From Clostridia bacterium (GTDB taxonomy: Bacteria; Bacillota; Clostridia; Oscillospirales; Acutalibacteraceae), in assembly GCA_017403185.1 (NCBI GenBank), contig JAFQON010000013.1, forward strand, positions 34,700 through 98,699: a DNA stretch of 64,000 bases, in the 5' to 3' direction. The translations under genes were made by a program, and so were the position numbers. Under the pieces are notes generated by a model that saw nothing but the letters and a program-made list of their open reading frames with translations, did no database searches and was not told where the DNA came from. Numbering within the stretch: the stretch's first letter is position 1; each line of letters begins with the position of its first letter. Of the stretch, positions 8,703-21,415 are shown in pieces.

Positions 8703-8736
8703 AATCCTCTGCAATTGAGCAGAGGATTAATTTTTT
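8703..8736 (+). terminator. Bidirectional terminator
   Basis: 9-bp stem ATCCTCTGC/GCAGAGGAT with a 6-base loop, T run on the plus side, A run upstream. It also ends the decarboxylase operon converging from the right. Confidence 0.85.
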
Positions 8737-9931
8737 ATTTGCCGAACATAAGAAGCAGGAAGCCTGCCGCAACTGCCGAGCCGATAACGCCTGCAACATT
8801 CGGTCCCATAGCGTGCATGAGAAGGAAGTTTGTGGGGTTATACTTTCTGCCCTCAGTCTGGGCAACACGGGCTGCCATGGGCACGGCGGAAACGCCTGCC
8901 GCACCGATGAGGGGATTGATTTTGCCGCCTGTAATAAGGTAGAGCAGCTTGCCGAGAAGCACACCGCCTGCCGTTGAGAATGCAAAGGCAAGAAGACCGA
9001 GACCGACAATCATAAGTGTTTTAACCTGAATGAAGTCAACACCGTTTGCCGTTGCGCCGACGGTAACGCCAAGCATAATTGTGACGATATTGGTGAGCGC
9101 ATTCTGCGCTGTATCGCTGAGCCTGTCCGTAACGCCGCACTCCTTGAGAAGGTTGCCGAGCATAAGCATGCCGACCAGGGGAGCTGCATCGGGAAGAATG
9201 AGAGCAACTATAACAAAAACAACAATGGGGAAGATGATCTTCTCAACCTTGCTGACCTTGCGAAGCTGCTTCATTTCAACTTCTCTTTCCTTCTTTGTGG
9301 TGAGAAGCTTCATAATGGGCGGCTGAATGATGGGAATAAGCGCCATATATGAATATGCCGCAAGAGCAATGGGTGCAAGCATATGGCTCGCAAGCTTTGA
9401 GGCAACGAGAATTGCCGTGGGGCCGTCTGCGCCGCCGATAATTGCGATTGATGCCGCCTCCTGAGGTGTGAAGCCGAGCAGAATTGCGATAACAAACGCA
9501 ACATAAATACCGAGCTGAGCTGCCGCACCGAGAAGAAGGCTGATGGGGTTTGCAAGAAGGGGACCGAAATCGGTCATTGCGCCGATTCCGAGGAATATAA
9601 GACAGGGGAAGATTGAACTTTTAACACCTGCATATATCAGCCGCAGAACGCCGTCGTCATACCAGTGAGCGCCCTCAACCTTCTGAGCCGCATCCATAAG
9701 ACCTGCGGGGTCATCCATCATGCCTGCGCCGGGCATATTGGCAAGAAGAATGCCGAATGCAATGGGCACGAGCAGAAGGGGCTCAAACTTTTTCGCAATG
9801 GCGAGGAAGAGGAAAACAAAGGCAACGAGAATCATAACGCCGTATTTCCAACCTTCAGCGGTGAAAAGCAGATTGATGCCTGAATTCTCCCATATGCCGA
9901 GAGCTATATCTTTGATTAATGATAAATCCAT
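8735..9931 (-). CDS. oadB: Sodium-translocating decarboxylase, beta subunit
   Basis: Integral membrane subunit of the biotin-dependent decarboxylase sodium pump (OadB/GcdB/MmdB). It decarboxylates carboxybiotin and moves Na+ outward. The protein is about 398 residues with many membrane segments; the signature loops GGADGPTAI and NPTNFLLMHAMGPN are clear. The frame extends to TTG 9940, but its spacing from AAGGAGG is only 3 bases. ATG 9931 (12 bases) gives the family-like start MDLSLIKD, so the start is slightly uncertain. Last gene of the operon, 17 bases after the biotin carrier. Confidence 0.94.
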   Translation of the reverse strand: MDLSLIKDIALGIWENSGINLLFTAEGWKYGVMILVAFVFLFLAIAKKFEPLLLVPIAFGILLANMPGAGMMDDPAGLMDAAQKVEGAHWYDDGVLRLIYAGVKSSIFPCLIFLGIGAMTDFGPLLANPISLLLGAAAQLGIYVAFVIAILLGFTPQEAASIAIIGGADGPTAILVASKLASHMLAPIALAAYSYMALIPIIQPPIMKLLTTKKEREVEMKQLRKVSKVEKIIFPIVVFVIVALILPDAAPLVGMLMLGNLLKECGVTDRLSDTAQNALTNIVTIMLGVTVGATANGVDFIQVKTLMIVGLGLLAFAFSTAGGVLLGKLLYLITGGKINPLIGAAGVSAVPMAARVAQTEGRKYNPTNFLLMHAMGPNVAGVIGSAVAAGFLLLMFGK

Positions 9932-9948
9932 AGGGGGCAAAGTCCTCC

Positions 9949-10374
9949 TTAGCCGATAACAGCGAGAACTTCGTCGGTATCAACGGTTGATCCCTTTGAA
10001 ACGAGAATCTGCTTAACTGTGCCTGCGCAGGGAGCAACGATTTCATTTTCCATCTTCATTGCTTCAAGGATAATGAGAACATCGCCTGCGTTAACTGCTG
10101 AGCCTACAGCTGTGTTAACTGCGAGGATTGTGCCGGGCATGGGAGCTGCAATCTTTGTGCCGTCTGCAGGAGCAGCTGCAGGAGCGGGTGCGGGAGCTGC
10201 TTCGGGTGCCGCTGCGGGAGCGGGTGCTGCTGCAGGTGCAGGAGCTGCAACGGGTGCAGCTGCAACAGGTGCTGCCATGGGGATTACTGCATCGGTAACA
10301 TTTGTGATAACTGCATCGGTTTCTTCAACCTCTACCTCGTATGCTTTACCGTTAAGGTTTACAATGTATTTCAT
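9949..10374 (-). CDS. Biotin carboxyl carrier protein of the decarboxylase
   Basis: Separate biotin-carrier subunit (141 residues) that shuttles CO2 from the OadA active site to the membrane subunit. The C-terminal biotinyl domain has the EAMKMEN motif, with Lys107 as the biotinylation site. An Ala/Pro linker of about 40 residues (about 33-72) precedes it and gives the arm its reach. It sits between oadG and oadB, which supports membership of the pump rather than acetyl-CoA carboxylase. GGAGG lies 8 bases before ATG. Confidence 0.93.
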   Translation of the reverse strand: MKYIVNLNGKAYEVEVEETDAVITNVTDAVIPMAAPVAAAPVAAPAPAAAPAPAAAPEAAPAPAPAAAPADGTKIAAPMPGTILAVNTAVGSAVNAGDVLIILEAMKMENEIVAPCAGTVKQILVSKGSTVDTDEVLAVIG

Positions 10375-10379
10375 AATGA

Positions 10380-10883
10380 TTATTCCTCCACTTTCTTGAT
10401 TGATTTGAAGCTGAGTCTTTCAAGCGGAATGCCGCTTTCGTTGCTTATGATTGCCATAATTGCTGCTACGGTGTTTTCGTCAACACCTTCAAGCTCAAGA
10501 CCTGCGGGAGCAAGGCATCTGATTGATTTGAAGCTGAGCTTTTCAAGCGGAATGCCGCTCTGATGGCTTACAAGTGCCATAACAACAGCTGCAGTGCGCT
10601 CATCTGTATCAATCAGACGGAGCCCGCCGGGGGCCGTAACTGCAGGAGCCGATACCGAAGCAGCCTGAGCGGTAGCTGCTGAAGGTGCCGATGCGGGGGA
10701 ACTTTCGGCAACGATGGGCTCATCGGGAACCGAGGATACTCTGCTTTCAACGGCTCTGAATATTTTTGAGAGAAAAACAATGAGGACTGCGAGGATTGCA
10801 AGCTCAAGAAGAACAACTGCTATACCTGCAACCGCAACAAACATTGTTTCCGACATGGTGAGAGAGGCTTTATCTGCAAACAT
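10380..10883 (-). CDS. oadG: OadG-family subunit with duplicated C-terminal motif
   Basis: Small single-span subunit that links the carboxyltransferase to the membrane subunit and aids assembly. Of 167 residues, a membrane segment lies at about 13-37, then an Ala/Ser/Pro linker. The C-terminal region has two near-identical copies of a motif containing SGIPLEKLSFKSI, about 41 residues apart. Typical OadG proteins are shorter and lack this duplication. It starts 11 bases after oadA and ends 5 bases before the biotin-carrier gene, so translation is probably coupled. Confidence 0.85.
   Translation of the reverse strand: MFADKASLTMSETMFVAVAGIAVVLLELAILAVLIVFLSKIFRAVESRVSSVPDEPIVAESSPASAPSAATAQAASVSAPAVTAPGGLRLIDTDERTAAVVMALVSHQSGIPLEKLSFKSIRCLAPAGLELEGVDENTVAAIMAIISNESGIPLERLSFKSIKKVEE
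10397..10559. repeat. Near-identical direct repeat inside oadG
   Basis: About 40 bases at 10397-10437 recur at 10520-10559, a 123-base (41-codon) period. They encode the repeated SGIPLEKLSFKSI-type segment. The near-identity at DNA level suggests a recent duplication. Confidence 0.85.
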
Positions 10884-10894
10884 AGTTAACCCCC

Positions 10895-12274
10895 TCAGTC
10901 AATTCTCTTGATTGTATAGGCGAATGTGTTCTTTTTCAGTGCTTCACGCTTTTCAAAGAAAGCCTCTGCCTGAGCGGGGAATGCGATATATGAAAGAACA
11001 TCCTCAATGCTCTTTGCCTTGTCGCCGAGATATTCCTTTGCTTCTTCAAGACCGGGAGCAAGGGTATCTGCGAATCTGCCCGTGAAGGGCTCTTCATCGC
11101 CGAGCACAAGCTTCTGGAGCTCTTCGCTCACCTTGCCGGGAGCCTGACCGTATTCGCCCTTGATATAGCTCTTTACTTCCTTTGAAATGTTCTTGTATCT
11201 TTCGCCTGCAAGAACATTGGCAGTTGCCTGAACACCGACCATCTGGCTCATGGGTGTTACGAGGGGAGGATAGCCGAGGTCCTCACGCACTCTGGGAGTT
11301 TCAAGCAGAACCTCATCGAGCTTATCAAGCTTCTTCTGAGCAGTGAGCTGAGCAACAAGGTTTGAGAGCATACCGCCGGGAATCTGATAAATCAGAGCGT
11401 CGGTTTGGGTGCCCATAACAACGGGATTGAGAAGTCCGCTGTCGAGTGCCTTTGCACGGATGGGCTTGAAGAAATCGTTGATTTCCTTGCATACATTCTC
11501 GTCAACATCAACCTCATAGCCGTACTGCTTGAGAGTGTAGACGAGAGTTTCGGTTGCGGGCTGTGATGTGCCGCCCGAGAAGCAGGAGATAGCCGAGTCA
11601 ATAACATCTGCGCCTGCTTCAACGCACTTGAGAAGTGTCATGAAGCCGAGACCTGTTGTTGAGTGGGTGTGAACAACGATGGGAACCTTTACATTTGCTT
11701 TGAGAGCCTTAACAAGGTCATAACCCTCTTTGGGGCTCATGATGCCTGCCATATCCTTAACGCAGATTGACTGAACGCCGAGAGCTTCAATCTGCTTCGC
11801 AAGCTTTACATAGTTATCAAGGTTGTGGATGGGGCTGATTGTGTAGCAGATTGTGCCTGATGCGTGTGCACCGCACTTGAGGGTTTCGTCAACTGCCACT
11901 TCGATATTGCGCACATCGTTGAGTGCATCAAATATTCTGATGATGTCGATGCCGTTTTCAACGCTCTTGCGGATAAACATACGAACAACATCGTCGGGGT
12001 AATGCTTGTAGCCGAGAAGGTTCTGACCTCTGAGAAGCATCTGGAGCTTGGTGTTGGGGCAGGCTGCCTTGATTTTTCTCAGTCTTTCCCAAGGGTCTTC
12101 ATTGAGGTAACGAAGGCAGGAGTCAAAGGTTGCTCCGCCCCAGCACTCGAGTGAGTAATAGCCTGCCTTGTCGAGCTTTTCAAGAACGGGTGCGAAGTCC
12201 TTGAAGGGCATTCTTGTTGCGATAAGCGACTGGTTGGCATCTCTGAGCACTGTTTCCGTGAAATTAACTTTCAT
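10895..12274 (-). CDS. oadA: Oxaloacetate decarboxylase, alpha (carboxyltransferase) subunit
   Basis: Transfers the carboxyl group of oxaloacetate to biotin, giving pyruvate. The 459 residues hold a TIM-barrel carboxyltransferase domain (start LRDANQSL, metal/substrate region ECWGGATFD, metal site VVHTHSTTG, catalytic-Lys region SICVKDMAG) and a conserved carboxylase domain. It lacks the fused biotinyl domain, which is encoded separately. Homology cannot fully separate it from a transcarboxylase, but the OadG and OadB neighbours make the sodium-pump assignment strong. Start with AAAGGAA ribosome site; 50 bases downstream of glyQS with no clear promoter between. Confidence 0.94.
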   Translation of the reverse strand: MKVNFTETVLRDANQSLIATRMPFKDFAPVLEKLDKAGYYSLECWGGATFDSCLRYLNEDPWERLRKIKAACPNTKLQMLLRGQNLLGYKHYPDDVVRMFIRKSVENGIDIIRIFDALNDVRNIEVAVDETLKCGAHASGTICYTISPIHNLDNYVKLAKQIEALGVQSICVKDMAGIMSPKEGYDLVKALKANVKVPIVVHTHSTTGLGFMTLLKCVEAGADVIDSAISCFSGGTSQPATETLVYTLKQYGYEVDVDENVCKEINDFFKPIRAKALDSGLLNPVVMGTQTDALIYQIPGGMLSNLVAQLTAQKKLDKLDEVLLETPRVREDLGYPPLVTPMSQMVGVQATANVLAGERYKNISKEVKSYIKGEYGQAPGKVSEELQKLVLGDEEPFTGRFADTLAPGLEEAKEYLGDKAKSIEDVLSYIAFPAQAEAFFEKREALKKNTFAYTIKRID

Positions 12275-14595: not shown

Positions 14596-14889
14596 TCAAA
14601 CAAGCATAGCGAGAAATTCGCCGATTTTTTCGCTTACGGTCATTAGAATATCTTCATTTTCTGTCATAAATTCCGTGAATTTCTCAAGAAAGGTTTTGCT
14701 GAAGCTATCCATAAAACCGAAAAAAGCTTCGTCGCTTCCGCCGAAAAAAACTTCAACAATACTGCCCAGAGCAAGTTCAAGAGGGCCGAAAAGAACATCA
14801 AGCGGACCGTAGCCGAAATTGCCCGCAACGGCGCAAATGAGCAGGTACGGCAGAAGTATCGGCAAGAAAATAATTACAACTGAACCCAT
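14596..14889 (-). CDS. 97-residue membrane-associated protein in the lipase operon
   Basis: Small protein with one strongly hydrophobic N-terminal segment (about 4-25, VVIIFLPILLPYLL), a Gly/Phe-rich middle and an amphipathic C-terminal helix. AAGGAGG lies 6 bases before the ATG and the ATG is only 11 bases after the lipase stop codon, so it is co-transcribed with the HTH-lipase gene. No family is recognised. The position suggests an accessory or immunity-like partner of the lipase-sensor protein, which is inference only. Confidence 0.65.
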   Translation of the reverse strand: MGSVVIIFLPILLPYLLICAVAGNFGYGPLDVLFGPLELALGSIVEVFFGGSDEAFFGFMDSFSKTFLEKFTEFMTENEDILMTVSEKIGEFLAMLV

Positions 14890-14900
14890 AAAAATCCTCC

Positions 14901-16526
14901 TTATTTAAGGTTTTCAATCATCTCAAAAAGCTCGGTGTAAAAATTGAGGGTAGGCTTGTTTTTGGCGTTGAGCCCTATAACGGTGCCGTGGTCTCCCTTG
15001 CGTGTTTCGGCAACATACCATATGCCCGTCTGAATATCCTTCTTATCCTCGGGGAATACGGTGTGGCTTTCACCGAACGGATACTGTGCGGAAACAACAT
15101 TTACAAGCCCGTCGTTTTCCTTCCACGATTTGTCAATGCTTATGCCGCCTTCGGTTGTGCCTGTGTATGCACCCATTGCAAGCGCAAACGGATAGAGCAC
15201 GGGCAGCGTTGATGCGGCGGGCAGGTGATTGCCGAGAATCGAGCTCTCAGAGGTTGTGCTGTATGCGTATGAGAAATAGTAAATACCCTCAACGGTTTTG
15301 ATTTTTTTGTTGAGCTGTGCCGCACCGTCGGGCGAGAGGTCGTATGCTGCATGGTCATTGCCTGCTGCCGTGAGGGCTGCAATTGCGCCCCGTGCATCGC
15401 TTTCACCGATTCCGAACTGGTCAAGGCTGAAATCGTAAACGCCGTTTATCGGTGAGGATATACCTGCAATGCCGAAGCAGAGCGACATGAGCAGGTCGGT
15501 TGTATCCGAAATTCCAACGGAGCTGCCGAGCGTGTTGATAATCTCGGTGAGTGTTGAGCCGTTGTGCGGAGCGCAGAGAGCGGTTACGGAATGAATGCAA
15601 TCGCCCTTGCCGCCCGTGAAAAGCGGCGAGGTTTCGTCGCCCGTCGCTTTCATCTCCGCTTCGTCGCCGTATTCAAGCAGAGAGGCAAGCAGCCTGACCG
15701 TTGCGCCGCCGAAGGAATGCCCCACAAGATTTATTTTCACCTTCTGACCGCCGTTGATTTTTTCGCCCCAGTTTTCAACAAGGGGAGCGGTGTAGGTTCT
15801 GCCGTAGCGTTCGTGATTGTGCTCCTTTGAATGTGCTTCGCCGTAGTCAACGGTTGTGCCTGTAAGCTGCGCATAAAGCTCGCACGCTCTGTCCCATGCA
15901 CTTGAAACAGGGCCGATACTCGGGGTATAAACGGTGTAGCCCTCAACCTCAAGATTCTTTTTGAGGTCGTATGCACCGCCGCCCCAATACTGAGCAACAT
16001 TATTTATTCCGCTGCCCTCGCCCCAGCCGCCGAGGCCGTGAACGAGCACGAAGGGGTATTCAACTTTGCCGCCGTTGAGCTCATACCAATAATCTTTGAT
16101 TTCATCCGAATATACGGGCACAAGCACCGCCGATACAGCTATCAGAATGATAAGAATAACCGATATTATTTTTTTGAACAGCTTTCTTTTGCTCTTTTTC
16201 GGCATTTCGGGTGCAGGCTCGGATTGAGCCTCTGACCCGTCATCCGTTATTTTTTCATTTTCTGCGATATTCTCTTTTTCTTCGGGCACCTCTTCAGTTT
16301 CGGTCACAAGCTCCTGCGGTGTTTCTGCGGCTTCATCCTTTAAAAGGTAGTCGGTCGATACGCCGAAAAGCTCGCTCATTGCAATAATTTTATCTATATC
16401 GGGAAGAGAGCCGCTTGACTCCCACTTGGAAACAGACTGACGGGATACCCCCAATTTTTCTGCGAAGGCCTCCTGAGAGAGCCCCTTCTCTTTTCTAAGT
16501 TTCAGTATTTTCTCGGAAATGTTCAT
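14901..16526 (-). CDS. XRE helix-turn-helix / membrane segment / family I.5 lipase fusion
   Basis: 541 residues in three parts. Residues 1-64 form a Cro/CI-type HTH (LSQEAFAEKLGVSRQSVSKW), then an acidic linker to about 108. A basic patch and one membrane segment follow (about 119-137). From about 155 comes a lipase of the Geobacillus/Staphylococcus true-lipase group: oxyanion loop VLVHGLGGWG, nucleophile Ser271 (GHSFGG), Asp472 (ENDG) and His513 (GDHG). Asp-His spacing (41) equals that of Geobacillus lipases, and their zinc ligands appear as Asp212, His232 and His238. A basic flank on the cytoplasmic side puts the HTH inside and the lipase outside. GGAGGA ribosome site; co-transcribed with the 97-residue gene. 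Confidence 0.9.
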   Translation of the reverse strand: MNISEKILKLRKEKGLSQEAFAEKLGVSRQSVSKWESSGSLPDIDKIIAMSELFGVSTDYLLKDEAAETPQELVTETEEVPEEKENIAENEKITDDGSEAQSEPAPEMPKKSKRKLFKKIISVILIILIAVSAVLVPVYSDEIKDYWYELNGGKVEYPFVLVHGLGGWGEGSGINNVAQYWGGGAYDLKKNLEVEGYTVYTPSIGPVSSAWDRACELYAQLTGTTVDYGEAHSKEHNHERYGRTYTAPLVENWGEKINGGQKVKINLVGHSFGGATVRLLASLLEYGDEAEMKATGDETSPLFTGGKGDCIHSVTALCAPHNGSTLTEIINTLGSSVGISDTTDLLMSLCFGIAGISSPINGVYDFSLDQFGIGESDARGAIAALTAAGNDHAAYDLSPDGAAQLNKKIKTVEGIYYFSYAYSTTSESSILGNHLPAASTLPVLYPFALAMGAYTGTTEGGISIDKSWKENDGLVNVVSAQYPFGESHTVFPEDKKDIQTGIWYVAETRKGDHGTVIGLNAKNKPTLNFYTELFEMIENLK

Positions 16527-16624
16527 GTTCGTCCTCCTTCAGATTTCACCACAATTTTAGCTCGTTTCGGCGGTATCTTCTACCAACTTTGGCGGACATT
16601 TGCAAAAATCGGGCAAAAAATGCT

Positions 16625-16665
16625 GTAAAGTCGGGTTTACATTGTGCCTGTAAAGCACATTTTAC
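16625..16665. promoter_or_regulatory. Twin palindromic operators of the HTH-lipase gene
   Basis: Two copies of GTAAA-N6-TTTAC (16625-16640 and 16650-16665), centres 25 bases apart. They sit just downstream of the promoter -10, over the start of the transcript. Likely binding sites for the HTH protein itself. Confidence 0.6.
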
Positions 16666-16674
16666 TCTGATAAG

Positions 16675-18420: not shown

Positions 18421-18532
18421 ATAATTTGCGCTTGGCATTTCAAAAAATTGACCTTTTTGCATCAAAAAACAGCCGTGTTTGCGCTTAGGTTGAGAGAAGA
18501 TTGAAAATTCTCTCGGAAAGGAGATGGTCGTC

Positions 18533-19003
18533 TTGACCGAAAAAGAACGCCTTTTTTGTGCCTATTATGCCGAAGACGGTGATGCAAGAGGCTGCGCCGC
18601 AAGAGCGGGTTTTGTTATCGCACCACGAAGAAGTGCGGCAAGGCTGCTTGCCAAGGAAGAAATCAGGGCGGAGATTTCACGGCTCGAAAAAGAAAAGAGA
18701 GCTACCGCAGCGCTCGTTGAAAAAGGTTTGCGACGCCTTGCCTTCGGCTCGGTTGCGGATGCCATGCGTCTGATGCTGTGTGAGGATACCCTTACTGCCG
18801 AGGAAATCGAAAAGCTTGACCTTTTCAATGTTTCCGATATAAAACGCCCCAAGGGCGGCGGACTTGAAATCAAGTTTTTTGACAGGCTCAAGGCTCTTGA
18901 ACGGCTTGAAAAGCTCGGCACGGGCGAAGAAAACACGCAGAGCAGCTTTGTTCAGGCTCTTGCAGAGGGAGCAAGGCTGCTTTCGCAGGAGGATGACTCT
19001 TGA
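18533..19003 (+). CDS. terS: Phage terminase small subunit
   Basis: DNA-recognition subunit of the packaging motor, 156 residues, Terminase_2-like. It has an N-terminal HTH-type helical region (TEKERLFCAYYAEDGDARG, then RSAARLLAKEEI), a coiled-coil-like stretch and a C-terminal segment ending near the large-subunit start. An ATG at 18524 abuts the GGAG ribosome site, so the in-frame TTG at 18533 (9 bases) is preferred. Its last bases overlap the terL start codon. The phased repeats 110 bases upstream are a possible recognition site. Confidence 0.85.
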   Translation: MTEKERLFCAYYAEDGDARGCAARAGFVIAPRRSAARLLAKEEIRAEISRLEKEKRATAALVEKGLRRLAFGSVADAMRLMLCEDTLTAEEIEKLDLFNVSDIKRPKGGGLEIKFFDRLKALERLEKLGTGEENTQSSFVQALAEGARLLSQEDDS

Positions 19004-20271
19004 TAAACAGTAAAAAAGCAGCATTCACTCCGTTTTCTTCAAAGCAGATGAAGGCACTGTGCTGGTGGATGCCCGACAGCCCCTTCTGCGCCCGTGATGC
19101 AATTATCTGCGACGGTGCGGTGAGGTCGGGCAAAACGCTGTGTATGTCAGTTTCATTTACGGCATGGGCATTTTCGTGCTTTTCGGATTGCTCGTTTGCC
19201 ATGTGCGGCAAAACGATTGCTTCACTACGCCGCAATGTTATAACGGTCATTCTGCCCGTGCTGCGTGAGCTGGGCTTTGAGTGCGTTGAAAAGCATTCAA
19301 AAAATCTTATTGAAATCACCTACGGCGGAGTGACTAACCGTTTTTATCTTTTCGGCGGCAAGGATGAGGGCTCAGCAGCACTCATTCAGGGCATGACCCT
19401 TGCGGGAGTGCTGCTCGATGAAGTTACGCTCATGCCCCGCTCCTTTGTTGAGCAGGCACTTGCACGATGCTCGGTTGAAGGGTCAAAGCTCTGGTTTAAT
19501 TGCAACCCCGAGCATCCGATGCACTGGTTTCACGAGGAGTGGATAAAAAAGCACGAAGAGAAAAACTGCTTTTATCTGCATTTCATGATGAAGGATAATC
19601 CTTCGCTCACACCCTCTATTATCCGCCGCTACGAGAAGCTCTATTCGGGCGCATTTTATGAAAGGTTTGTTCTCGGCAGATGGGTGGCGGCGCAAGGCAG
19701 CGTGTATCCCATGTTTTCACACGAAAAGCATATTGCACCCCCTCCCGACAGCTTTGAAGAGTATTACATTTCATGCGATTACGGCACGGTCAACCCCTCC
19801 TCCTTCGGTTTGTGGGGCAAAAACGGCGGTGTGTGGCACAGAATCCGTGAATATTACTTCGATTCACGCACCGAGGGCAGGCAGAAAACCGACGGCGAGC
19901 ACTACGATGCTTTGTGTGAGCTTGCGGGCAGCCTGCCGGTTGAAGCCGTTATTGTTGACCCGTCGGCGGCAAGCTTTATGGAGTGCATAAGGCGTGCAGG
20001 CAGATTCAGGGTCATACCCGCAAAAAACGATGTTATTGACGGAATAAGGCGTGTTTCGGATTGCCTTAAGGAGCAGAAAATCATGTTTTCGCCCGAATGT
20101 AAGGACACAATCAGGGAATTCGGTCTTTACAGATGGGAGGAGAACTCCGCAAAGGATTCCGTCAGAAAAGAAAATGACCACGCAATGGACGATATCCGCT
20201 ATTTTGTTTCAACCGTTGTGACAAAGCAGGATGACGGCGGATTTTTTGCCCTTGCGGCGAGAAGAAAGTGA
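19000..20271 (+). CDS. terL: Phage terminase large subunit
   Basis: ATPase/nuclease of the packaging motor, 423 residues, full length for the PBSX/SPP1-like group. The ATPase half has Walker A at 39-46 (GAVRSGKT), Walker B with Asp140-Glu141 (VLLDEVTL) and a coupling motif (FNCNPEHP). The nuclease half has the acidic residues of CDYGTVNPSS, VIVDPSAASF and HAMDDIRY. It starts with TTG overlapping the terS stop, 7 bases after AGGAGG. No frameshift or missing catalytic residue is seen. Confidence 0.93.
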   Translation: MINSKKAAFTPFSSKQMKALCWWMPDSPFCARDAIICDGAVRSGKTLCMSVSFTAWAFSCFSDCSFAMCGKTIASLRRNVITVILPVLRELGFECVEKHSKNLIEITYGGVTNRFYLFGGKDEGSAALIQGMTLAGVLLDEVTLMPRSFVEQALARCSVEGSKLWFNCNPEHPMHWFHEEWIKKHEEKNCFYLHFMMKDNPSLTPSIIRRYEKLYSGAFYERFVLGRWVAAQGSVYPMFSHEKHIAPPPDSFEEYYISCDYGTVNPSSFGLWGKNGGVWHRIREYYFDSRTEGRQKTDGEHYDALCELAGSLPVEAVIVDPSAASFMECIRRAGRFRVIPAKNDVIDGIRRVSDCLKEQKIMFSPECKDTIREFGLYRWEENSAKDSVRKENDHAMDDIRYFVSTVVTKQDDGGFFALAARRK

Positions 20272-20284
20272 AAGGAGGATGTGA

Positions 20285-21415
20285 ATGGGAATATTCAAAA
20301 GCCGAAAAATATCAAGAGTTTCCGCACCGGTGACACAGAATGCAAGCAGGCACCCCTTCGGAATTATTGACGGCTATGTGCCTTTGGCAGCACCGCAGAT
20401 GCGGCTTTATTATGCTCTCAGGGAGGCGGTGCCCGTTATTGATGCGGCGATATTCAAGCTGGTGCGGCTTACGGGCGGATTTGCCGTTGAATGCGACAAT
20501 GCGGCGGCCCAGTCAGCGGTTGACGAATTTGTTCAGTCTGTGCCTGTAGGAGGCAACAGGCAGGGGCTTGCGGCGTTTATATCGAGCTATTTTGAGCAGC
20601 TTCTCACCTGCGGCACTGCGGTTGGCGAGATTGTAACCGATACCGACGGCGTGCCGAGAGCACTTTTTAACGCTCCGCTCGAAAACATTGAGCTCAAACG
20701 CTGCAAAAACGGTTTCGATATTGAAATCTATACCCGTAACGGCGCAGAGCTTCGCAAGGTAACAAGGCCTGAGATGTGCCTTCTCAGTGTGCTCAATCCC
20801 GACCCCGGTGCACTTACGGGCAATTCAATGCTCAGGGGTCTGCCGTTTGTAAGCTCGATTCTGCTCAAGATTTTCGACAGCATCGGCGCAAACTGGGAAA
20901 GAGTGGGCAATCTTCGCTTTGCAGTGACCTACAACCCCAAAAACGATGCGATGGACAGGGCGTATGCAAAGGACAGAGCGCTTCAGGTTGCAAAGGAATG
21001 GGGCGAGGCAATGCAGAGCGGCTCCGAAATCAGGGATTTTGTTGCCGTGGGTGATGTTCAGATTAAGGTTATCGGAGCAGATAATCAGATTCTTGACAGC
21101 GAGGTGCCCGTCAGGCAGATGCTTGAACAGATTGTTGCAAAAACAGGTCTGCCGCCCTTTATGCTCGGGCTTTCGTGGTCAAGCACGGAGCGAATGTCCG
21201 CTCAGCAGGCGGATATGCTCACAAGCGAGCTTGAAGCCTACAGAAGAATTCTGACGCCCGTTATCAGAAAAATCTGCACCGCATATCTGCGAGGCATCGG
21301 TTTTTCCTGCGCAGTAAATGTGGTGTGGGATGATATCACGTTGCAGGATGAGGTTGAGCTGAGCAGAGCCGAGCTTTACCGAGCGCAGGCAGAAAAAATA
21401 AGGAGAGGTGAATAA
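20285..21415 (+). CDS. Phage portal protein
   Basis: Dodecameric portal through which DNA enters the capsid; 376 residues, within the usual range for PBSX-like portals. Conserved stretches include APLENIELK and the C-terminal region with SSTERMSAQQADML. It follows terL by 13 bases with a strong ribosome site (AAAGGAGG). The stop codon TAA overlaps the probable original start of the next gene. Confidence 0.88.
   Translation: MGIFKSRKISRVSAPVTQNASRHPFGIIDGYVPLAAPQMRLYYALREAVPVIDAAIFKLVRLTGGFAVECDNAAAQSAVDEFVQSVPVGGNRQGLAAFISSYFEQLLTCGTAVGEIVTDTDGVPRALFNAPLENIELKRCKNGFDIEIYTRNGAELRKVTRPEMCLLSVLNPDPGALTGNSMLRGLPFVSSILLKIFDSIGANWERVGNLRFAVTYNPKNDAMDRAYAKDRALQVAKEWGEAMQSGSEIRDFVAVGDVQIKVIGADNQILDSEVPVRQMLEQIVAKTGLPPFMLGLSWSSTERMSAQQADMLTSELEAYRRILTPVIRKICTAYLRGIGFSCAVNVVWDDITLQDEVELSRAELYRAQAEKIRRGE

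Follow-up and report, generated by a model that had tools for sequence, protein, structure and literature searches.

A putatively membrane-tethered HTH-lipase protein of uncultured gut Clostridia with a predicted operator and a small predicted regulon

Transmembrane one-component regulators usually carry binding domains, and those of the CadC/ToxR type have winged-helix DNA-binding domains. The BlaR1 sensor domain is of serine-hydrolase descent, and lipases of family I.5 and of the staphylococcal type are free secreted enzymes. As described in the available part of the source (PMC12203970), RsgI anti-sigma-I factors of Clostridium thermocellum have a GH10 or peptidase-like ectodomain as sensor, an indication that Clostridia can use an enzyme ectodomain for sensing. 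The available part of a second source (PMC9214523) describes the co-component systems VtrA/VtrC and ToxR/ToxS, in which a membrane-tethered partner is encoded beside the regulator.

We analyzed a Clostridia locus whose product joins an XRE-type HTH and a lipase in one chain (the HTH-lipase, or fusion); the window refers to the whole 64-kb stretch of DNA that was analyzed. The fusion shares with RsgI a Gram-positive host, one predicted membrane helix, a regulatory part predicted to lie inside, and a possibly enzymatic ectodomain, but RsgI as presented in the available part of its source binds a sigma factor and undergoes proteolytic processing, whereas the fusion has its own HTH and a lipase (PMC12203970). 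BlaR1 and MecR1 likewise have an outside sensor domain for which acylation is the signal; however, in the available part of that account they act through a metalloprotease on a separate repressor, whereas the fusion carries its HTH on the same chain (PMC9834060). An HTH inside, one helix, and an ectodomain outside is also the arrangement of CadC/ToxR-type proteins, although these are Gram-negative, their ectodomains are not described as enzymes in the available part of the source, and the fusion combines an HTH_3 domain with a lipase (PMC9214523). With family I.5/staphylococcal-type lipases (Lip_C; 5ah0, 5ah1, and 8yye) the fusion has in common the whole domain, the catalytic triad, and the zinc ligands, and it differs from the secreted I.5-type enzymes in its HTH, linker, and membrane anchor. 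XRE membrane proteins of the same genus (a 216-aa protein in genome G033 and L081 in the fusion's own genome) resemble the fusion in their type of HTH, after which hydrophobic segments follow, and the G033 protein also has a similar promoter layout, but at 188-216 aa they are too short for such an enzyme ectodomain. The preliminary description had stated that no system of this kind is described. A literature keyword search, with most subscription journals outside its reach, agreed in finding no description of an HTH-lipase, but RsgI, with its GH10/peptidase-like ectodomain, and BlaR1 are functional analogues. As a kind, the protein groups with transmembrane one-component regulators, and its HTH is not of the ToxR/CadC type.

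The fusion is a single open reading frame of 541 aa on the minus strand of the window (16526..14901), with an ATG start and GGAGGA 5' of it. Its features and the small gene that follows are:

14901..16526, minus strand: HTH-lipase gene, 541 aa (ORF call and Pfam)
16344..16505, minus strand: HTH_3 DNA-binding domain, residues 8-61 (Pfam E 7.8e-18)
16185..16331, minus strand: acidic, fast-changing linker, residues 66-114 (alignment and charge counts)
16107..16169, minus strand: membrane segment, about residues 120-140 (hydropathy peak, with the positive side before it)
16062..16106, minus strand: juxtamembrane stalk, residues 141-155 (alignment)
14904..16061, minus strand: lipase domain, residues 156-541 (Pfam, PDB sequence match, and active-site residues)
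14596..14889, minus strand: small protein of 97 aa with an N-terminal hydrophobic segment (ORF and homolog)

The HTH_3 match scored 64.7 bits against a cut-off of 23 (E 7.8e-18), and among solved sequences the HTH alone was closest to that of the ICEBs1 Xre-family regulator 7t8i, followed closely by P22 c2. The lipase matched Lip_C (PF24708) over residues 156-522 with 200.6 bits against a cut-off of 27 (E 4.4e-59), and its best PDB sequence match was the 5ah0 lipase (E 2.3e-76, residues 156-538). The linker stretch counted 16 D/E residues versus 3 K/R, and one hydrophobic segment, at about residues 120-140, precedes the lipase. Pfam, charge, and hydropathy thus agree with the earlier reading of an XRE HTH, an acidic linker, one membrane segment, and a lipase in one frame. 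The winged-helix Trans_reg_C domain of ToxR/CadC was not among the 22 Pfam matches, and the N-terminal part fits HTH_3 best. We found no RodZ C-terminal domain among the Pfam matches of the protein and no RsgI N-terminal sigma-binding domain among its Pfam or NCBIfam matches.

The genome that carries the window (G000) is a draft, 80% complete in 50 contigs. It has three more Lip_C genes, all without an HTH, whose similarity to the fusion starts at the membrane segment (residues 111-115), as if the HTH and linker had been added ahead of an exported lipase. The same genome has 33 HTH_3 matches, 30 of which were extracted, and a clear hydrophobic segment follows the HTH only in the fusion and L081, with L080 ambiguous; this tally is rough, as the frame picked was not that of the HTH in several loci (for example, L083, L085, L097, and L100).

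The 97-aa open reading frame begins 11 bases past the lipase stop, a gap that makes cotranscription of the two genes likely. Its homolog in G012 has 89 aa, with 35 of 89 positions identical and a dN of 0.55 versus a saturated dS of 3.8. A gene for a putative small membrane partner lies within 12 bases downstream of the fusion in the window and at L010, L012, L013, and L016, but not at L009 and L011 among others. This neighbor recalls the co-component systems as presented in the available part of their source, although it is not universal (PMC9214523). No neighbor was conserved across all lineages. An upstream MgtE gene and a downstream glycyl-tRNA synthetase gene recur in only part of the genus. 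Elsewhere in the window, genes on the plus strand beyond the MgtE gene (18524-21415) encode both subunits, small and large, of a phage terminase together with a protein resembling a portal (below cut-off), and this region is a prophage edge or remnant. Genes of the sodium-pumping oxaloacetate decarboxylase type (beta subunit, biotin carrier, and carboxylase domain) occupy 8735-12274 on the minus strand.

A search of 45 genomes of the genus and of 398 genomes from other genera of the family (in the 398, three candidates scored per genome at E <= 1e-100) gave full-length relatives in both sets. MAGs titled Oscillospiraceae, Ruminococcaceae, or Clostridia bacterium gave 8 full fusions among 9 loci, partly from the same genomes, and several of these MAGs come from ruminant gut samples. 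The comparison set comprised 34 distinct fusions, including two pairs more than 90% identical, and 16 HTH-less relatives. The fusions come from several genera. L018 of draft genome G021, an HTH-lipase gene with an in-frame TGA, is a pseudogene or contains a sequence error; neither the set of 34 nor any alignment includes it, and G021 was still counted among the fusion genomes. L034, which lacks upstream sequence, was omitted from operator counts, and L022 was omitted from alignment A3. Outside the family, no fusion was found in 394 genomes of the order and 391 of the class at E <= 1e-60 with three candidates scored per genome.

The triad Ser271/Asp472/His513 and the zinc trio Asp212/His232/His238 lie where they had been placed from the window alone and are invariant, as is Asp391, in all 34 fusions and all 16 HTH-less relatives. 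Asp391, absent from the earlier list of residues, is a probable fourth zinc ligand, which we take from its spacing compared with L1-type lipases. Mean pairwise identity across the 34 fusions was 71% for the HTH (residues 1-65) and 62% for the lipase, 49% for the stalk region (residues 139-155), 38% for the membrane segment, and 19% with 40% gaps for the linker. With HTH and lipase conserved and the linker not, both ends are under purifying selection while the linker drifts. The 32 other aligned fusions are 50-71% identical to the window protein, and the recognition segment (S28, R29, Q30, S33, W35, and E36) is invariant in all 33.

A hydropathy peak was present in each of the 34 fusions, and K/R residues summed over these proteins totaled 195 in the 15 positions preceding the membrane segment versus 57 in the 15 that follow it. 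This bias points to the HTH lying inside, consistent with the earlier proposal of an inside HTH and an outside lipase, and we infer this topology from it. By sequence, hydropathy, and the positive-inside rule, the protein fits a membrane-tethered one-component design. In the lipase-domain tree, the fusion label needs five changes, of which the starred branches force three, and several forks are weak. HTH-less lipases (L042, L023/L026/L027, and L044/L045) are placed among the fusions, which suggests repeated loss of the HTH.

The preliminary description had also pointed to palindromes at 16625-16665, ahead of the gene, as candidate binding sites for the HTH. Both are present, and with the second site discussed below the predicted promoter elements are:

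16649..16666, minus strand: weaker operator copy, AGTAAAATGTGCTTTACA (11/14 versus TGTAAACnnnnGTTTACA)
16624..16641, minus strand: predicted operator O1, TGTAAACCCGACTTTACA (13/14 versus TGTAAACnnnnGTTTACA)
16581..16598, minus strand: predicted operator O2, weak (9/15), starting 39 bp before the start of the -10 box
16554..16559, minus strand: predicted -10 box, TAAAAT (promoter scoring)

The window by itself has 4 matches at no more than 3 mismatches versus 2.4 expected, no more than chance; the weight of the palindrome comes from relatives. Within 260 bases upstream of the fusions, TGTAAACnnnnGTTTACA occurs with at most 2 mismatches (at least 12/14) in 25 of 33 cases and with at most 1 mismatch in 23 of 33. 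None of six upstream regions of HTH-less relatives reached 12/14 (best, 10/14), and HTH-less lipases falling among the fusions in the tree also had no motif. When the motif was loosened, after the data had been seen, to C or G at the inner position and 300 bases (for L052, the region before a 40-aa open reading frame was used), 28 of 33 fusions reached 12/14. No good O1 was found within 300 bp, even with the loosened motif, for L021, L022, L033, L043, and L053, and L043 has an exact site farther upstream. The conserved palindromic 18-mer is TGTAAASnnnnSTTTACA, our predicted operator O1. Exact copies also lie inside HTH-lipase coding sequences, before the membrane segment, in L179 and L178 (position 1501 in each; G332 and G381). 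A 1-mismatch site in the own genome (C28:10716) lies inside a 557-aa open reading frame resembling leuA by eye and was taken as chance.

Exact O1 sites track the fusion across genomes. In the genus, they occurred in 18 of 45 genomes (3 of 45 for a reversed-pattern control), comprising 16 of 20 fusion genomes (G000, G003, G004, G009-G014, G017-G021, G023, G025, G027, and G029-G031) versus 2 of 25 others (Fisher p 1.1e-6). In other genera, among 28 chosen genomes, an exact site was present in 10 of 14 with the fusion versus 1 of 14 without (p 0.0013), and the reversed control hit 2 of 28; both p-values treat related, mostly draft genomes as independent and are too small. The fusion of G030 (L034) was matched by contig coordinates, a recheck confirmed the fusion of G020, and a search for a hidden HTH in the five doubtful cases among the 25 others (G022, G044, G032, G039, and G008) found none.

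The 16 site-bearing fusion genomes of the genus contain 32 exact sites, of which 15 lie before fusion genes and 10 before small anchored genes or genes of a family that we name VWEYD; three of these 10 are at contig ends in G023, two with identical flanks, so the loci may be fewer. Another 5, all within one subclade, separate a Cys-rich gene from a divergent neighbor, and the remaining 2 precede a 521-aa exported-type protein in the own genome and a DUF5104 protein. The Cys-rich gene (L128, L131, L135, L138, and L139) is itself marked by the motif YNCGRLCDGLCCRGDCKGMW, and a lipoprotein-like gene follows it, with a PGA_cap match in L131. DUF5104 proteins lie behind or beside an operator in three genomes (L127, L125, and L180), and a literature keyword search found no paper on DUF5104. 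The 10 site-bearing fusion genomes of other genera have 16 sites. Ten precede the fusion, three of them located from coordinates only and one at a distance of about 300 bases; 3 stand before VWEYD genes (two in G190 and one in G381), 2 are in fusion coding sequences, and 1 is at a small XRE gene. These data support the DNA-binding role proposed earlier for the HTH, which probably binds the O1/O2 motif. In G035 and G039, the two fusion-free genus genomes that have an exact site, these sites sit at another small XRE gene, suggesting that related XRE proteins use similar operators. Small XRE genes with products starting MKNRI (L140, L141, and L232, in G035, G039, and G332) thus represent another use of this type of operator.

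The second site, O2 (TGTAAASnnnnATTGnTTG), abuts the -35 box. We collected 52 upstream regions of fusions and candidate targets, of which 40 passed the O1 and O2 thresholds and 38 had a usable -10 box. In 33 of these 38 promoters, the distance from the start of O2 to the -10 hexamer was exactly 39 bp (searched range, 34-51 bp), a spacing that centers O2 near -42. Distances between O1 and O2 in the 40 promoters fell at 22-25, 32-36, 41-46, and 52-57 bp, and a periodicity test on the distinct spacings gave p 0.0024. Such helically phased spacing would be expected of two dimers bound to the same face of the helix. By itself the O2/-10 pattern is less clean, with hits in 13 of 20 fusion genomes versus 3 of 25 others and a reversed control of 4 of 45. 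Searching with it added a 72-aa anchored protein in G000 and its ortholog in G018 (O1 scores of 11/14 and 13/14, respectively), an anchored protein of 70 aa in G020 (O1 13/14, start codon 404 bases on), and one of 163 aa in G003 with no O1, besides some places that look unrelated, L226 and L212 among them. L211, the 216-aa XRE protein with a hydrophobic segment in fusion-free G033, has a similar O2/-10 promoter ahead of it, which suggests a wider class of autoregulated XRE membrane proteins.

Activators of the lambda CI kind occupy this position near -42. We therefore lean toward activation at O2, which we consider slightly more probable than repression. L134, L137, and L157 have a palindrome 42-43 bases ahead of the start codon, near the likely transcription start, where binding would repress.

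Most VWEYD proteins are 214-251 aa long and have an N-terminal hydrophobic segment followed by a domain with GIVWEYD and FTDxNGN, which presumably lies outside the cell. The family had no Pfam, NCBIfam, or PDB match of weight, and a profile comparison with solved structures gave nothing below E 0.49. Weak matches to Inhibitor_I42 (chagasin) appeared in 6 of 21 members (best E 0.0017), and we do not claim that identity. Seven proteins, six from regulon regions and the 97-aa product, had no NCBIfam match. In the genus, VWEYD genes occur in 14 genomes, all with the fusion: 9 with the typical form and 5 with only a distant 343-aa form. That distant form (L151-L155, L162, and L165), confined within the genus to fusion-bearing genomes, had the motif in 0 of 7 genes. 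Among typical genes of the genus, 8 of 17 have O1 at 13/14 or better upstream; L158 has O1 at a contig-end copy, L145 lies behind a 65-aa gene that carries O1, and four (L146, L148, L149, and L159) lie behind the HTH-lipase in the same direction. Among typical VWEYD genes outside a lipase operon, the motif was absent at L150 and L160 and weak at L161 in the genus, and absent at L188 and L193 outside it. A VWEYD profile hit 8 of 398 family genomes, 7 of them with the fusion; G364 has VWEYD genes and neither the fusion nor an exact site. VWEYD sites recur in genus g18. For the 60-97-aa proteins, dN/dS was about 0.1-0.3 in four pairs, with dS undefined in a fifth; these low values indicate that such proteins, the 97-aa product among them, behave as real genes.

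Taken together, these findings make it probable that the fusion is a membrane-tethered XRE one-component regulator with a lipase ectodomain that controls its own promoter and a small regulon. In the proposed mechanism, a cytoplasmic N-terminal XRE-type HTH would bind O1 and O2 as dimers, with one helix passing through the membrane to a lipase outside that is catalytically complete by sequence. The tethered dimer on O1 and O2 would set transcription of its own operon, and the predicted regulon would consist of anchored or exported-type proteins: the 60-97-aa proteins, the VWEYD family, and DUF5104 proteins. We conjecture that a lipid substrate or product at the lipase alters DNA binding across the membrane; alternatively, the trigger may be contact with the coregulated small proteins. 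Either a protein that stays tethered, like CadC, or membrane proteolysis of the RsgI kind could pass the signal on. Three models could account for the lipase part: the enzyme state may be the signal (compare BlaR1 acylation), the lipase may act by lipid binding, or its amount may be self-regulated. It is quite possible, if short of probable, that the state of the working enzyme, be it acylated, product inhibited, or substrate bound, is conveyed through one helix to the HTH, in a co-component circuit in which the fast-changing small surface proteins are possibly substrates, cofactors, or modulators of the enzyme.

Of the explanations that compete with this regulator, the one we take most seriously, while still finding it rather doubtful, treats the lipase as a passenger: the HTH would only autoregulate an anchored surface lipase, with the small proteins as coexpressed partners. 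The own promoter of the fusion is indeed the commonest place of the exact motif (15 of 32), and every tested catalytic and zinc residue is kept, as expected of an enzyme in use. In addition, anchored relatives with no HTH (L042, L044, L045, L023, L026, and L027) suggest that an anchored lipase can work without one. However, separate genes bear the same predicted operator, and fusing a regulator to an exported enzyme would be an odd route to autoregulation alone. It is unlikely that a signal peptidase cuts the membrane segment, leaving a free lipase and a separate HTH membrane peptide. Paralog homology from residues 111-115 onward makes that segment look signal peptide derived, and small residues lie near its end in many members, but the stalk shows conservation (49% identity) for which a cleaved-off remnant would have no use.

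We consider it quite unlikely that a different XRE protein binds the operator while the HTH of the fusion does something else, such as the protein contact of RodZ. The 33 HTH_3 matches in the own genome offer candidates, a different small XRE gene has an exact site in G035 and G039 and, in one instance, in G332, and in fusion-free G033 a similar promoter stands before an XRE protein with hydrophobic segments. Against this, the sites accompany the fusion across several genera and are absent from relatives that have no HTH, the recognition segment is invariant in 33 aligned fusions, and the RodZ domain is absent from the Pfam matches. A sequencing or assembly artifact joining two genes, for which the unusual architecture and nothing else would speak, has negligible probability: the 34 distinct fusions in different genomes and genera rule it out.

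What is new here is the predicted operator and regulon. The HTH-lipase has an apparently intact enzyme in place of the usual binding domain, in uncultured gut bacteria, and the VWEYD proteins, DUF5104, and the 60-97-aa anchored proteins gain a first genomic context. The predicted operator and compact target list make the idea of extracellular enzyme turnover being read by DNA directly testable, and such a reading would need no kinase, sigma factor, or second messenger.
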